64,000 nt of DNA from Stigmatella aurantiaca DW4/3-1 (lineage in GTDB: Bacteria > Myxococcota > Myxococcia > Myxococcales > Myxococcaceae): assembly GCF_000165485.1 (NCBI RefSeq), contig NC_014623.1, forward strand, positions 7,210,893 through 7,274,892, given 5' to 3'. The position numbers and the translations under genes are program-made. Under the pieces are notes generated by a model, which worked only from the letters and a program-made list of their open reading frames with translations, was not told where the DNA came from and did not search any database. Shown here one piece after another: positions 13,377 through 19,695 of this stretch (the stretch's first letter is position 1; each line of letters begins with the position of its first letter).

Positions 13377-14291
13377 CTACGTCCCATCCCCGTCGTCCAG
13401 CACCTGGCTGAGCCCCACGTCCATCTGGCTTTCGATCTCGGCCAGGAGGCTCTCGAACTCGCGTGTCGACAACCGGAGCCGCTCCTGCAAGCGGCTCTTG
13501 GTCCCCTCGTACACGGTTTGCCGGGCGCTCTTGATCCAGCGCGAAATGGTCGATTGGTTGACTTGGAAGAGGGGCCCCATCTCGATGGTCGACAGGCGAT
13601 CGATGAAATGCAGACGCAGCAAGTGCCGCTGATCGTCTGACAAGGCCGAGAAGGCATCGCGCACGGCCTGACGGAACTCCTTGCGGTAGCGCCGCTTGAT
13701 GAGGTCGATCTCGGCGTTGGAGCTGGGCTCGGAGAAGGCCTCGATGAGGGTCATCACGTTCTCTTCGGGTGCCTCCCGGCCCACGCCTCCCTGTTTGAGG
13801 GCCATGCGCACCGCGATGACCCGGATCCAGCTCAGCAGTGCCCCGCGGCCCGTGTACTCCCCGAGCCGGGGTCTCGATTCGGCCGTCCCCACCAGCAGGT
13901 GGATGCGCACGCTCTGGCAGACCTCGTCCAGGATTTGCTCGGGCAGTCTGAGATACGCCAGCGCGTGCGGCAACTTGCCCAGGTAGTGCTGCTCCAACGC
14001 TTCGATCGCCCCCGCCACGCCATTCACACAGGCACACGCGATGTAGAGATCCGCCAGCACCAGGTGCTCGAGCAAGAGAGCGAGCGGCCCTCCCAACTCC
14101 TGGCTGGAAAGCCTCATCGACAGATGGCGGACAAAGACCTCCGCCGGCAAATCCACTCCCGGCCACGCCGCACGGGCGTTGTCCCAAGTGCGCCTCAACA
14201 CAGCCTCAAGCCCAGCCATCTCATCGGCGCCGGTCATTCGAACCGGGGCATTCTTGAGGAATGTTGTGGCGAGAGTGAACGGCTCCACCAT
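13377..14291 (-). CDS. Myxococcales-type sigma-70 family RNA polymerase sigma factor
   Basis: A sigma factor that would direct RNA polymerase to a specific regulon. The C-terminal half has region 2-like GALLSWIRVIAVRMAL and a region 4 helix-turn-helix ALSDDQRHLLRLHFIDRLST then FQVNQSTISRWIKSAR. The N-terminal 110 residues are an extra helical part not found in ordinary ECF factors. The pattern fits the Myxococcales family I remember as TIGR03001 (Sig-70_gmx1). I chose the ATG at 14291 (304 residues) because AGGA precedes it and a TACAAT -10-like element lies between it and the alternative ATG at 14348. It is divergent from the zinc-motif kinase fusion, a probable regulator of it. Confidence 0.85.
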   Translation of the reverse strand: MVEPFTLATTFLKNAPVRMTGADEMAGLEAVLRRTWDNARAAWPGVDLPAEVFVRHLSMRLSSQELGGPLALLLEHLVLADLYIACACVNGVAGAIEALEQHYLGKLPHALAYLRLPEQILDEVCQSVRIHLLVGTAESRPRLGEYTGRGALLSWIRVIAVRMALKQGGVGREAPEENVMTLIEAFSEPSSNAEIDLIKRRYRKEFRQAVRDAFSALSDDQRHLLRLHFIDRLSTIEMGPLFQVNQSTISRWIKSARQTVYEGTKSRLQERLRLSTREFESLLAEIESQMDVGLSQVLDDGDGT

Positions 14292-14433
14292 GTGTTCCAA
14301 TCCTACCCGTGTGATTCCATTGTACCCACCACCTTGACGGGTGGACATGGGATGGTGTCGTCTTCGCTCGCTGCCAGCTGCTGCCCCTCTAGCATGGTTC
14401 AGCCAACAAGCAGATTTGCACTTTGGGCCCCCC

Positions 14434-17400
14434 ATGCCGCGTAATGCTGGCTCGGCCGAGCCACGCTGTTTGACCGATGAACTCCTCGCGGAGCTGATTG
14501 ACGGGCGGCTCCTACCCGAAGAACTCACTCGCATCCATCACCATGCATCGACCTGTCCGGAATGCCATGCGCTGCTGGTGACGGTCCTTCGGGGAGGGGT
14601 GCAGCAAGACATCCCCAACGCCCAACCACCTGAGGGCCCCAAGACCCTCGCGTCCACGGACTCCCTGCCTGCTTCCTTGGAGAAGCCCTGGGTTCCGCCT
14701 GATGCGTTCGATGAGTTCCGCCTCTTGCGGCTGATTGGCCGCGGGGCCATGGGCGTCGTCTACCTCGCGCACGACACCTCCCTGGACAGGGAAGTCGCCG
14801 TGAAGTTCATCGCCTCGCACCAGCCCAACGCACGGGCGCTCGCGCACTTCCAGATTGAAGTCCGCGCCATCGCACGGGTGCAGCATGCGAACGTCGTGAC
14901 CGCCTTCCGGGTGGGAACGGTGGCGGGCCGGCCTTACCTTGTTTCCGAGTATGTGGCTGGACAAAGCTTGGCGGACATGCCGTTGCCCATGCCCTGGCGG
15001 CGCGCGCGGGCCCTGGGCCTTGGCATGGCCCGCGGCCTCGCGGCAGCCCACCGTCAGGGCGTGCTCCATCGCGATCTCAAACCGGCCAATGTGCTCCTCA
15101 CTTCGGGTGGGGAGGTCAAACTGCTCGACTTTGGTCTGGCCGAGCTCGTCGATGGAGACTCGGGTGATGGCCCCCCTGGAGCGCGCACCACGGCGGGCAC
15201 ACCGAGATACATGGCGCCCGAGATCTTCCGGGGCCAGCCGGCAACCCCTCAGAGCGATCTCTACTCCTTGGGCCTTGTCCTCTACGAACTCTGTACGGGA
15301 ACGATCCCGCCCCATCGCCACACGCTGCGCCTGATCAAGAAGGGACAGCCCGAGCCCCTCTCCCCGGAAGCGCCTGTCCAGAGCAGTGCCCCTCCGCTCA
15401 CGGAGCAAGTGCCGGGCATCGACCTCGATTTCGCCTCGCTGATCGATCGCTGTCTCCACCTCAACCCTGCCGAGCGGTTCTCCTCCGCGGAAGCCCTTCG
15501 CGTCGAATTGGAGCGTCTCGGACAACGCCATGACACGGAGAGCCTTCCGGACGGCAGTCCCTACCAAGGGCTGGCTTCCTTTGAAGCGGAGCACCGGGCG
15601 CTCTTCTTTGGCCGAGACGCCGACATCCGCTCCGTGCTCGACCGCCTGCGCCGGCAACCGCTGGTCCTCATCGCGGGGGACTCAGGTGTTGGCAAGTCCT
15701 CGCTGTGCCGGGCAGGCATTCTTCCCCGCGTCGCCCAGGGCGCGCTGGATGACTACCGGGACTTTCGGACCCTGACGCTGACGCCGGGCCGTCTGCCCCT
15801 CACGGTTCTCGCCGCCACCCTGGCCCCCGTGCTCCAACGGACCGAAGCCGAACTCATGGAGCGGCTCACCGGAGAACCGGGATGGCTGGGAGCCACCCTC
15901 CGCGCCACCCATCAAGACGGGCGTGGCGTGCTCGTGTTCGTCGATCAACTCGAGGAGCTCGTCACCCAGAGCGACCCCGTCCAGGCCCTCCGCTTTGCCG
16001 GGCTTCTCGGCGAACTGGCCCTGCCGGCGCCAGGCGTGCGCGTGCTGCTCACCGTTCGCGGTGACTTTCTCACCCGGGTGGGGGCCTTGCCCGGCTTGGA
16101 TGAGGCCATCGAACGCTCGCTGTACCTTCTGCAACACCTCAAGTCCGAGGGGATTCGCGAAGCCATTGTCGGCCCCGCCCGGAGCCGGGGCGTGAGCTTC
16201 GAATCAGAGACGCTCCTTCAGACCCTCATCGACCAAACGTCCCAGGGAGCGGGCAGCCTGCCCCTTCTCCAGTTCACGCTGACCGAGCTGTGGGAACGCC
16301 GCGACGCCTCCCGGGCATGCATCACCCAAGCGTCCCTGGAAGCCATGGGCGGGGTGGAGGGGGCGCTCTCCCGGCACGCGGATCACGTGCTGGCCCGGCT
16401 CAAGCCCATGGAACAGCAAGCGGCACGCCGTCTCCTGGGACGCCTCATCACGCCGGAAGGCACACGCGCCGAACGAAGCGAAGGAGAACTCACGGAAGAT
16501 TCCCCCGAGGCGCGCGCCGCGCTCCAGGTGCTCATCGAAGGCCGTCTGCTTCACGCGCGCACCCAGGAAGGCAGGACGCACTACGAAATCGCGCACGAGG
16601 CGCTGATCTCGAACTGGGGAACCCTGCGCCGCTGGCTCAACGAAGATGCCGCGCAGCGGATGCTCAGACAGCGTCTCGAAGTCGCCAGCGGCGAATGGGA
16701 ACGTGCCCACCGCGCCCGGGATCTCCTGTGGCGTGCAAGTCAACTCAAGGAAGCCCATGCCATGGACATCAGCAGCTTGAGGGATCGTGAAAAGAACTTC
16801 CTCCGCGCTTCGAGGCAAGCGGCGCTCCGACACCGCAGACTCCTCGTGCTTGCCACGATCCTGCTGGTGCTCGCGGCGGTGGGGCTCTACGCCGGACCTC
16901 GTCTGATCGAGCAACGGAACCGGCAACGAGCCATTCAGGCGCTGCTGGAAAATGCCTCGACAGCACTCCAGGCTGGAAAAGCTTCCGCTCAGCAAGCCAC
17001 CTCCCACCGGAAAGAAGCCATCGCACTGTTCGATGGCCAATCCCCCTGTCCCCATACACAGCCATGTCCCCAAGGGCCCCTTCTTCCCGCGGACCGGAAA
17101 AACCTGGCGGAGACCGAATGGGAACAGGCATTGGGTGCGTTCAAACAGGCCAATCTCCGCTTCGCTGCTTCGGAGCAAAAGATTGAAGACGCTCTTGAAC
17201 TCTCCAATCAGGATCCCGATGCGCGCAAACTCCTCGTCGAGACCACCTACGAGCGCCTCACGCTCGCCGAACGCTTCCATGCCCGGGACGAACGCATCCG
17301 GCTCACCGAGAAATTCAAGAAACTGACCTCCGGTGAGCCGCTCTTGCAGCAACCGATTGAAGCTCCCGCAAGACTTGAGATTCAGACCACTCCACCGGGG

Positions 17401-18462
17401 GCGACCGTTGAGCTGGCCTTCATCGGCGATACGTCAGCAGAGCCCCAGCCTGTGTTCGCCAACCCCAGCGAACATCGCATCATCGGCACAACCCCTCTTT
17501 CGCCGTTGACCCTGCCGCCAGGCACTTACCATCTCCGCATCACGGCAGAAGGCCGAGAACCGGTCTCTTTGCCCCTGTGGCTCGAACGGAACGGGCACGA
17601 GCGGCTCCAGTTGACGCTTCCAACCGTTGTTCCAGCAGGCTACGCCTACATTCCTCCCGGCTGCTTTTTCATGGGAAGTGCCGACATTGAAGCCCTGCGT
17701 TCGTTCGTCGAGAGCCCTCCCATTTACCGGAAGTGCCTGACCGGTGGATTCTTCATTGGAAAGAACGAGGTGACCTTTCGCGATTGGCTGGAATATCTGG
17801 AGACGAAGGGTCCGAAGGCGCCAGAACGCCGCATCCTTGAGGAGCCTCTCTTCAATGAGAGCAGTGCCCTGTCCTTGCGGAAACTGCCAAATGGCCGCTG
17901 GCAATTCTCTTTCCACCGAAGAAGCGGAGAAACCCTGACAGCGCTGAACGAAGACATGTTCCGGTATTCCACGCGGAAGAAAAACGAAAGCCAGGATTGG
18001 CGCCAGTTTCCCCTGGCGGGCGTCTCTGCCAATGACATCCAGGGTTATCTCGGCTGGCTCGACCGCTCGGGCCGGTTGAAAGGCGCGCGGTTGTGCAGTG
18101 AGCCGGAATGGATTCGCGCGGCCCGAGGAGCAGATGACCGGCGCTTCCCTCACGGAAACGAACTCGCATCCGCTGACGCCAATATCGATAAAACCTACGG
18201 CCGCCAATTGGGTTCTTACGGACCTGACGAGGTCGGGCGACACCCCGAGTCCGCAAGCTTTTGGGGGCTTCAGGACATGGCAGGCAATGTCTTCGAAATG
18301 GTCCGTGACATGGATCCCCTGAACACCTCACTCCTGCTGAAAGGTAGCGCTTGGTACTACCCGGAGGCCGGTGCATTGGTCGCGGCACGCCAGCCCATCC
18401 CACCCAATCAAGGAGACTCACGGATCGGCGTGCGGGTGTGCGCTTCCCTCCCTACTCCTTGA
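14434..18462 (+). CDS. Fusion: anti-sigma-like zinc motif, Ser/Thr kinase, STAND NTPase, PEGA, FGE-like domain
   Basis: A 1342-residue membrane signalling protein. In order: an N-terminal zinc motif of anti-sigma type, H-x3-C-x2-C (HASTCPEC, about 35-42); a Ser/Thr kinase (about 92-360) with IGRGAMGVVYLA, HRD at 212-214 and DFG at 232-234; a STAND-type NTPase (about 370-780) starting PYQGLASF and FFGRDADI with Walker A GDSGVGKSS near 415; one membrane span (about 800-820, LLVLATILLVLAAVGLYAG); a linker; a PEGA-like domain near 980-1060 (IQTTPPGATVEL, GTTPLSPLTLPPGTYHLRI); and a formylglycine-generating-enzyme/SUMF1-like domain to the end (YIPPGCFFMGS, KNEVTFRDWLEYL, LQDMAGNVFEMV, GVRVCAS). 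The FGE-like end shows KGSAWYYPE where catalytic FGEs have cysteines, so it is probably a binding domain. Kinase residues look intact. The start at 14434 is tentative; the frame is open to 14341. Confidence 0.85.
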   Translation: MPRNAGSAEPRCLTDELLAELIDGRLLPEELTRIHHHASTCPECHALLVTVLRGGVQQDIPNAQPPEGPKTLASTDSLPASLEKPWVPPDAFDEFRLLRLIGRGAMGVVYLAHDTSLDREVAVKFIASHQPNARALAHFQIEVRAIARVQHANVVTAFRVGTVAGRPYLVSEYVAGQSLADMPLPMPWRRARALGLGMARGLAAAHRQGVLHRDLKPANVLLTSGGEVKLLDFGLAELVDGDSGDGPPGARTTAGTPRYMAPEIFRGQPATPQSDLYSLGLVLYELCTGTIPPHRHTLRLIKKGQPEPLSPEAPVQSSAPPLTEQVPGIDLDFASLIDRCLHLNPAERFSSAEALRVELERLGQRHDTESLPDGSPYQGLASFEAEHRALFFGRDADIRSVLDRLRRQPLVLIAGDSGVGKSSLCRAGILPRVAQGALDDYRDFRTLTLTPGRLPLTVLAATLAPVLQRTEAELMERLTGEPGWLGATLRATHQDGRGVLVFVDQLEELVTQSDPVQALRFAGLLGELALPAPGVRVLLTVRGDFLTRVGALPGLDEAIERSLYLLQHLKSEGIREAIVGPARSRGVSFESETLLQTLIDQTSQGAGSLPLLQFTLTELWERRDASRACITQASLEAMGGVEGALSRHADHVLARLKPMEQQAARRLLGRLITPEGTRAERSEGELTEDSPEARAALQVLIEGRLLHARTQEGRTHYEIAHEALISNWGTLRRWLNEDAAQRMLRQRLEVASGEWERAHRARDLLWRASQLKEAHAMDISSLRDREKNFLRASRQAALRHRRLLVLATILLVLAAVGLYAGPRLIEQRNRQRAIQALLENASTALQAGKASAQQATSHRKEAIALFDGQSPCPHTQPCPQGPLLPADRKNLAETEWEQALGAFKQANLRFAASEQKIEDALELSNQDPDARKLLVETTYERLTLAERFHARDERIRLTEKFKKLTSGEPLLQQPIEAPARLEIQTTPPGATVELAFIGDTSAEPQPVFANPSEHRIIGTTPLSPLTLPPGTYHLRITAEGREPVSLPLWLERNGHERLQLTLPTVVPAGYAYIPPGCFFMGSADIEALRSFVESPPIYRKCLTGGFFIGKNEVTFRDWLEYLETKGPKAPERRILEEPLFNESSALSLRKLPNGRWQFSFHRRSGETLTALNEDMFRYSTRKKNESQDWRQFPLAGVSANDIQGYLGWLDRSGRLKGARLCSEPEWIRAARGADDRRFPHGNELASADANIDKTYGRQLGSYGPDEVGRHPESASFWGLQDMAGNVFEMVRDMDPLNTSLLLKGSAWYYPEAGALVAARQPIPPNQGDSRIGVRVCASLPTP

Positions 18463-18657: not shown

Positions 18658-19695
18658 ATGAAAAAACTGTTCTCAGTTTTTGTCTGTCTTTTGGTCAATT
18701 CGATGTCACTGGCATCCGAGCCCAAACGGGACTCCGCACGCGCCGCCCCTGAGAGGCGCGGCGTCCCTCCCCGGGAGGCTCCCTGCAAAGGACCCCAGGA
18801 TCCACAGCGCATCAGCTGGCCCCAGGGCACGATGCTGTGGGGAATGACAAGACAGTCCGCCGCAGAAGAGAGGAGCAGTGTTCTGACGGCCGTCGCGCTG
18901 GACCGCGTGACGCTGGGAGGAGCGCCACTCAAGGATGTCCGTCTCGAGAATGGCCACTTGACGGCTCCAAACCTTCCCGCTGAGGACCTCTCAGGCGCCA
19001 TCTTTCAGGGAACGGCCAGCGATGGCGGCCCGGTCGAGGTCGCCGTCTGTGGCGCCGAGCCCTCCCAGCAGGATCCAGCGATGCGCTGGTACCGCATCGA
19101 GATCTGGGACAAGCAGAAGGAGTCCTGGGAGAACCCGTGCATCGCGACCCAGCGGGCGCCCAATCCCAAGGCGCTTGCCGTGCAGGGGCTCTGGGACAAG
19201 CAGGGCTCGCGCCATGAAGAGCCGGGAAAATTCACCTTCGCGTGCGAGAACGGCGCCATCGCCAAGTGCATTCACTGGGGCTACAAGCCCTGGGCCACGA
19301 AGGACGGGCAGCCGCTGACGGACATGCACCAGGCTTGCACGCGAATGGCCCGGGCGGACTATTGCGGCAATGGGCGGAGCCATACCCGCCAGGACAATGT
19401 CATCGACATGTATGACAGCCTCGGGCTCCAGGCCCGGACGACCCAGGCCTCCACGAACTGGGTCCCCGAAAAGGCTTCGTTCGAGGCAGCCTGGTCCCCG
19501 GAGGGCGCGACGTGTCTGGCACGCACCCGGGACGGACAGGACGCCCAGACCATCTTGAAGGAGTGTCCTGGGCGCTTTGAAGCGAGGGCGAAGGATCTCG
19601 GAGAGGGGGATCACTGCAGCGTGCGCCTCAAGGGCAAGCACGCCGACACCGTCCTTCTGAGAAATCACTCCTACGGGCCGTCACCACGAATTTAA
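18658..19695 (+). CDS. Secreted ADYC-domain protein
   Basis: A 345-residue exported protein with a signal peptide (KKLFSVFVCLLVNSMSLA, then SEPK). The C-terminal half holds the ADYC signature (RMARADYCGNGRSHT) preceded by CIHWGYKPW, which fits the ADYC domain, a family of unknown function frequent in myxobacteria. Several cysteines (CKGP, CGAE, CIAT, CENG, CIHW, CTRM, DYCG, CLAR, CPGR, CSVR) suggest disulfides outside the cytoplasm. It lies downstream of the kinase fusion after 195 bases containing an inverted repeat, so it may be a separate unit. Function unknown. Confidence 0.75.
   Translation: MKKLFSVFVCLLVNSMSLASEPKRDSARAAPERRGVPPREAPCKGPQDPQRISWPQGTMLWGMTRQSAAEERSSVLTAVALDRVTLGGAPLKDVRLENGHLTAPNLPAEDLSGAIFQGTASDGGPVEVAVCGAEPSQQDPAMRWYRIEIWDKQKESWENPCIATQRAPNPKALAVQGLWDKQGSRHEEPGKFTFACENGAIAKCIHWGYKPWATKDGQPLTDMHQACTRMARADYCGNGRSHTRQDNVIDMYDSLGLQARTTQASTNWVPEKASFEAAWSPEGATCLARTRDGQDAQTILKECPGRFEARAKDLGEGDHCSVRLKGKHADTVLLRNHSYGPSPRI

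Follow-up and report, generated by a model that had tools for sequence, protein, structure and literature searches.

The window analyzed here, a stretch of 64,000 nucleotides from the genome of Stigmatella aurantiaca DW4/3-1 (10,260,756 bases), encodes an ECF sigma factor and, head-to-head with it, a Ser/Thr kinase that carries an anti-sigma-type zinc domain ahead of its catalytic domain. The two proteins likely act together. The sequences show directly the domain architecture, intact residues for zinc ligation and catalysis, and a pairing of the two genes that is near-universal. The kinase protein is best read as a membrane anti-sigma factor or a docking kinase. The pairing suggests that in myxobacteria a single protein leads from an external signal to the activation of genes.

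Organization of the Gene Pair

The sigma factor gene (13377–14291, minus strand; 304 aa) and the kinase gene (14434–18462, plus strand; 1342 aa, an ORF from the ATG at 14434) diverge from a shared upstream region at 14292–14433, confirming the head-to-head arrangement described in an earlier sequence-only reading of this DNA. The −10-like site which that reading placed in the shared region was not recovered: a sigma-70-type scan of 14200–14500 gave 0 sites, a conserved promoter was not found between the genes, and divergent relatives, compared over 47 distinct upstream regions, have no common footprint, the top 8-mer occurring in 14 of the 47. By NCBIfam match the sigma factor belongs to TIGR03001 (Sig-70_gmx1; 336.4 bits, cut-off 154.6), and it also matches the sigma70-ECF superfamily model TIGR02937 (58.5 bits, cut-off 42.9). 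Directly downstream of the kinase gene lies a further ORF (18658–19695, plus strand), a possible target or partner, whose N-terminus is hydrophobic and whose sequence includes the letters ADYCG.

Conservation of the Pairing

Of the 147 genomes in the window's class, 98 have TIGR03001 matches at E≤1e-20, as do 109 of the 195 in its phylum, with up to 22 matches in one genome. To catalogue their neighborhoods we used 177 loci, the window and 176 others, a non-random set of mostly high-scoring TIGR03001 matches that includes 40 weaker ones chosen largely by size of contig. A locus was called paired where a kinase lay within 2 kb and carried H-x3-C-x2-C no more than 125 residues ahead of its kinase domain, which was the case at 165 of the 177; these loci are related, and the pairing counts are therefore not independent draws. 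Half of the 12 misses fall at contig ends (L055, L056, L085, L099, L142, L192), and three have no kinase of any sort within 2 kb (L017, L062, L093). The others comprise L076, where kinase frames are present and the motif is absent; L084, whose neighboring kinase has a zinc-less, anti-sigma-like N-terminus; and L173 (identical to L197, Pyxidicoccus fallax), where the kinase, similar in other respects, has Tyr in place of one zinc-ligand Cys. The sequence-only reading had expected close relatives to keep the His/Cys residues, and this holds for 165 of the 168 neighboring kinases with a readable N-terminus, the exceptions being the single Cys lost in L173/L197 and the motif-less L084 and L076. 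By eye, the usual C-terminal Ser pattern is also missing from the sigma factor of L084.

A scan of named genomes with two short patterns (best 80 of 158 relatives) yielded 79 loci that partly overlap the 177-locus set, of which 67 are paired. All 79 come from myxobacterial genera or from bins labeled Myxococcota, Deltaproteobacteria or Proteobacteria; capped at the best 80 of 158, this sample says little on other phyla. Its misses comprise the Cys loss (L197), a motif-less kinase (L230), a motif kinase 3.3 kb off (L260), four loci with nothing near (L232, L245, L259, L272) and five at contig ends (L240, L251, L255, L267, L270). The kinase-less L017 is another locus of the S. aurantiaca genome itself (G000:C1:9081674-9082396), and TIGR03001 genes without a kinase within 2 kb thus occur in this genome and in Hyalangium versicolor (L245). 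Among plasmids, 868 records match, and the best by coverage (Rhodococcus, L274) is a kinase without the motif.

The association was also followed from the kinase side. In five complete genomes, each of 41 sigma matches lies no more than 3.5 kb, match to match, from a motif kinase; a 42nd sigma row was removed as a fragment of its neighbor. Conversely, among those listed of 450 kinase matches, 46 kinases align from the zinc domain, and 41 of these have TIGR03001 within 3.5 kb. The five unpaired kinases among the matches listed (L275–L279) lie in two genomes, G104 and G075. Near one of them is an ORF with a sigma-like motif, about 2.3 kb off; no ORF there matched the sigma model. The five kinases may have their partners among sigma factors that are distant or orphan. 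The earlier expectation that every close homolog adjoins a homolog of this sigma factor is thus sustained for the great majority (165/177, 67/79, 41/41 and 41/46) and fails for the five unpaired kinases and, from the sigma side, for the kinase-less L017, L062 and L093.

Within the S. aurantiaca genome, the zinc-domain profile has 23 matches at E≤1. The top four are kinases that each adjoin one of the genome's five TIGR03001 genes, four of which are thereby accounted for; inspection by eye placed none of the remaining 19 ahead of a kinase among the matches listed. The same genome holds 153 kinase matches at E≤1e-10. Four further regions with zf-HC2 in long frames contain no kinase, and a separate zf-HC2 match (G000:C1:2647485-2647604, minus strand) is separated by about 1.2 kb from the kinase gene at 2645475-2646242 (minus strand). 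Other kinases within the 177 loci carry the motif in only 3 of 30 cases: a second copy in tandem at each of L077 and L167, and an L180 kinase that sits beside a second sigma gene of its own.

Co-variation of Sigma Factor and Kinase

The evolutionary distances of the sigma factor correlate with those of the zinc domain at 0.885 (300 within-architecture shuffles gave a mean of 0.26 and a maximum of 0.32) and with those of the kinase domain at 0.868. Co-inheritance of the sigma factor and the kinase protein is thus strong but not specific, and the mirror-tree result speaks for co-inheritance only. Direct coupling analysis between zinc domain and sigma factor was uninformative, with about 54 effective sequences and unclustered top pairs. 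A candidate charge pairing between sigma K254 and an acidic residue at zinc-domain position −14 (34 of 35) was set aside, all 34 being of the nSTAND1+FGE type and the pairing probably reflecting one event.

These data bear on the idea that the genes are co-inherited without contact of their products, the zinc domain serving another purpose. That the kinase domain tracks the sigma factor nearly as well as the zinc domain does, and that the sole charge pairing seen is restricted to one architecture, would suit it. The 165 pairs, however, occur in four gene orders (kinase–sigma 66, sigma–kinase 48, divergent 47, convergent 4), and the only zinc-domain matches ahead of kinases in the S. aurantiaca genome, by eye and among the matches listed, are the four beside sigma factors. 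We hold linkage without contact to be very improbable. Pairing also occurs with differing C-terminal kinase parts.

The Zinc Domain

The motif on which the sequence-only reading had been founded, HASTCPEC, is present at residues 37–44 of 1342, not at the extreme N-terminus as had been described. It belongs to a zf-HC2/anti-sigma-type domain at residues 12–54 (14467–14595, plus strand) with three predicted helices, in which a candidate upstream ligand position would complete the set C12, H37, C41 and C44; Cys12, 25 residues ahead of His37, could be the fourth ligand. Profile searches support the anti-sigma-type assignment. Residues 1–100 match PF13490 (zf-HC2) at 25.0 bits (cut-off 22.2), the full-length protein scoring slightly below the cut-off at 21.2 bits. 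A family profile was built from 40 diverse relatives, of which 32 were aligned and eight divergent ones, most without the Cys at −25, omitted; all 32 of the aligned relatives left by this omission match PF13490 at E≤1. Searched against the PDB, the zinc-domain profile finds the solved anti-sigma factors RslA (3hug, 3.6e-6), DdvA (3.1e-5) and ChrR (about 2.7e-4), the three structures spanning E-values of 3.6e-6 to 2.8e-4. RsiW follows at 0.05, and the profile further matches a CHAT protein (0.0015) and weaker, unrelated chains.

The C-H-C-C set raises the prospect of a redox switch, in which an RsrA-like thiol sensor would free the sigma factor on oxidation and the kinase would act on something else. 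RsrA has its ligands at C11-H37-C41-C44, and the Cys at −25 from the motif, found in 155 of 165 paired kinases, gives an RsrA-like spacing; the NCBIfam RsrA model matches weakly (18.5 bits, far under its cut-off of 62.5). Set against this are the retained catalytic residues of the kinase, the varied C-terminal parts, which suggest other signals, and the structural role that zinc can play in anti-sigma domains, as stated in the accessible part of one source (PMC7406223). We consider a redox switch improbable.

A structural model of residues 1–372 (mean pLDDT 83.2) has helices at 15–22, 28–40 and 42–54, then a low-confidence stretch, then a confident kinase from about residue 94. The low-confidence stretch corresponds to a linker at residues 55–93 (14596–14712, plus strand), with pLDDT below 50 at 56–66 and 68–81. 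The fourth, sigma2-contacting helix of class I anti-sigma factors is absent from the model, the domain stopping at residue 54, and across the 165 loci the linkers are mostly short and Pro/Ala/Gly-rich, with a Pro/Gly-free run of at least 12 residues in 10 of them. Given the three-helix model and the Pro/Gly-rich linkers, the zinc domain looks like the sigma4-binding half of an anti-sigma domain. The RslA structure, by its entry title solved with the sigma4 domain of SigL, offers a precedent for a sigma4-only grip, and a fourth helix may fold upon sigma binding. Three helices on a flexible linker, with no sigma2-blocking part seen in the model, would also serve the main rival to a restraint-and-release reading. 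This is a docking kinase, whose zinc domain would recruit the kinase to the sigma factor without inhibiting it, and whose phosphorylation of the sigma factor would activate or tune it, as in an ECF43-like system with a built-in docking domain.

Kinase, NTPase and C-terminal Domains

The linker leads into a Hanks-type Ser/Thr kinase domain at residues 96–356 (14719–15501, plus strand; Pkinase, 170.7 bits) with a complete set of catalytic residues: K124, E142, H212-R213-D214, N219 and D232-F233-G234. Paired kinases keep HRD in 163 of 165 cases and DFG in 164 of 165, and the near-constancy of these residues also favors a docking kinase. In an alignment of 49 kinases (the window's and 48 of the 67 paired kinases from the named-genome scan), Cys12 and the catalytic residues are invariant; the invariance of H37, C41 and C44 in these 49 is built in, the motif having been the entry condition.

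Beyond the kinase domain lie, all on the plus strand, an nSTAND1 NTPase domain at residues 376–762 (15559–16719; 345.9 bits), a predicted transmembrane segment at residues 803–821 (16840–16896; mean hydropathy 2.53 over 19 residues), a weak PEGA match at residues 1017–1062 (17482–17619; 19.6 bits against a cut-off of 20.8) and an FGE-sulfatase-like domain at residues 1072–1294 (17647–18315; 70.8 bits, cut-off 23.3). Because a single transmembrane segment is predicted, the FGE-like domain would sit outside the membrane. By a simple hydropathy rule, at least one such segment is predicted in 129 of the 165 paired kinases and none in 36. Among the matches listed, it mostly falls about 270–310 residues past the kinase start; for kinases of the nSTAND1+FGE type the distance is mostly about 700 residues, which puts the segment behind nSTAND1. 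The predicted domain order is the one that inserting a kinase into a membrane anti-sigma factor would give.

The Sigma Factor

The sigma factor comprises an N-terminal extension of predicted helices (residues 1–76; 14064–14291, minus strand), an ECF core of sigma2 (79–169) and sigma4 (193–272) delimited by profile and structure comparison (13476–14057, minus strand), and a C-terminal tail (13380–13475, minus strand) with a predicted helix at 276–298 that includes Ser281. Within the extension, W43, F53 and H56 recur in 137, 141 and 135 of the 165 paired loci. Profile matches of the sigma factor include E. coli sigma-E and others. Residues 77–273 align with ECF structures at Z up to 11.4, but values of this size can arise between helical proteins by chance. 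Foldseek returned no match for the sigma factor at E≤0.001, the best being 2.1e-3.

The sigma factor's region 2.2 and its tail weigh differently on a docking kinase. The factors of the ECF43 group are without the acidic motif of region 2.2 and gain the charge by phosphorylation, according to the part of PMC8999054 available. Here, position 123 is acidic in 165 of 165 paired sigma factors (122 and 123 both in 136), and a Ser or Thr occurs anywhere in 121–124 in only 16; the sigma factor should therefore not need phosphorylation to bind polymerase. Phospho-charging of the ECF43 type is accordingly unlikely, and with it the EcfP route for a docking kinase. The C-terminal helix with its Ser281, which is Ser in 161 of 165, could provide another site for such a kinase. 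Six sigma factors that have no kinase close by (L017, L062, L232, L245, L259, L272) also carry this residue, and by eye that of L093 does not; Ser281 is therefore not tied to the neighboring kinase, which weakens it as the pair's switch. Overall, we judge a docking activator to be an unlikely account of the pair, if a serious one.

A Proposed Model for Restraint and Release

Our preferred reading, which we hold to be probable by a modest measure, is restraint of the sigma factor by the kinase protein, followed by release through phosphorylation. The pair would form a single signaling unit, in which a membrane kinase would use a zinc anti-sigma domain at its cytoplasmic tip to bind the adjoining ECF sigma factor, most likely gripping it through sigma4 and keeping it at the membrane. 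The outer FGE-like part or the nSTAND1 NTPase would receive a signal and switch the kinase. The kinase would then phosphorylate its own zinc domain or linker in cis, or else the bound sigma factor, with the conserved C-terminal Ser281 as a candidate site, and so free the sigma factor to RNA polymerase. A precedent for such release is the phosphorylation of zinc anti-sigma factors by PknB, which frees their sigma factors (accessible parts of PMC8999054 and PMC13147305). The sequence-only reading, that this one protein binds the sigma factor and releases it through kinase or ATPase activity, is thus supported in part; we infer the binding, the direction of control, the phosphorylation and the signal, and release by either activity belongs with them. 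Several observations count against restraint and release: the fourth helix not seen in the model, the 36 of 165 kinases without a predicted transmembrane segment, the 5 of 46 unpaired kinases, the kinase-less L017, L062 and L093, and the presence of Ser281 in unpaired sigma factors. A broader proposal, that such pairs are one-protein transmembrane switches throughout Myxococcota, with a fused zinc domain and Hanks kinase, a sigma4-only hold, release by cis-phosphorylation and interchangeable outer sensors, is put forward tentatively, as an idea that may well prove wrong.

Comparison with Known Systems

The class I zinc anti-sigma factors RsrA, ChrR, RslA and RsiW share with the kinase protein a zf-HC2-type domain, the H-x3-C-x2-C motif, a helix bundle, an adjacent sigma gene and, often, a membrane segment; they differ in that here a full Hanks kinase follows the domain and the fourth helix is not seen in the model. 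SpoIIAB unites anti-sigma and kinase activity in one protein, and its kinase, like that of RsbW, has the GHKL fold, unrelated to Hanks kinases. RsbW resembles the window's protein in the same respect, as far as the accessible part of its source describes it, and both act on an anti-anti-sigma factor, unlike our reading of the window's kinase.

The ECF43 pairs EcfP–PknT and EcfK–PknS likewise have an ECF sigma gene beside that of a Ser/Thr kinase (available parts of PMC8999054 and PMC13147305); here, in contrast, the acidic residue of region 2.2 is kept and the kinase has an anti-sigma-type domain. ECF59, 61, 62 and 217 are tabulated as phosphorylation-regulated ECF sigma factors, with examples from Planctomycetes, in the accessible part of PMC8999054, and the likeness, kinase regulation of an ECF sigma factor, goes as far as that table entry. 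Searches of open-licence literature listed no title or abstract opening on a Ser/Thr kinase with a fused zinc anti-sigma domain, and none with TIGR03001. The kinase-controlled ECF systems described in the accessible parts of PMC8999054 and PMC13147305 have the Hanks kinase and, where there is one, the anti-sigma factor as distinct proteins. A functional likeness is offered by Mycobacterium PknB, whose targets are RshA and another zinc anti-sigma factor related to it, where, in the same partial sources, a Hanks kinase controls a zinc anti-sigma factor as two separate proteins, whereas kinase and zinc domain are fused here. If true, this fused version would account for some of the wealth of kinases and sigma factors in myxobacteria and name a testable partner for many uncharacterized kinases.
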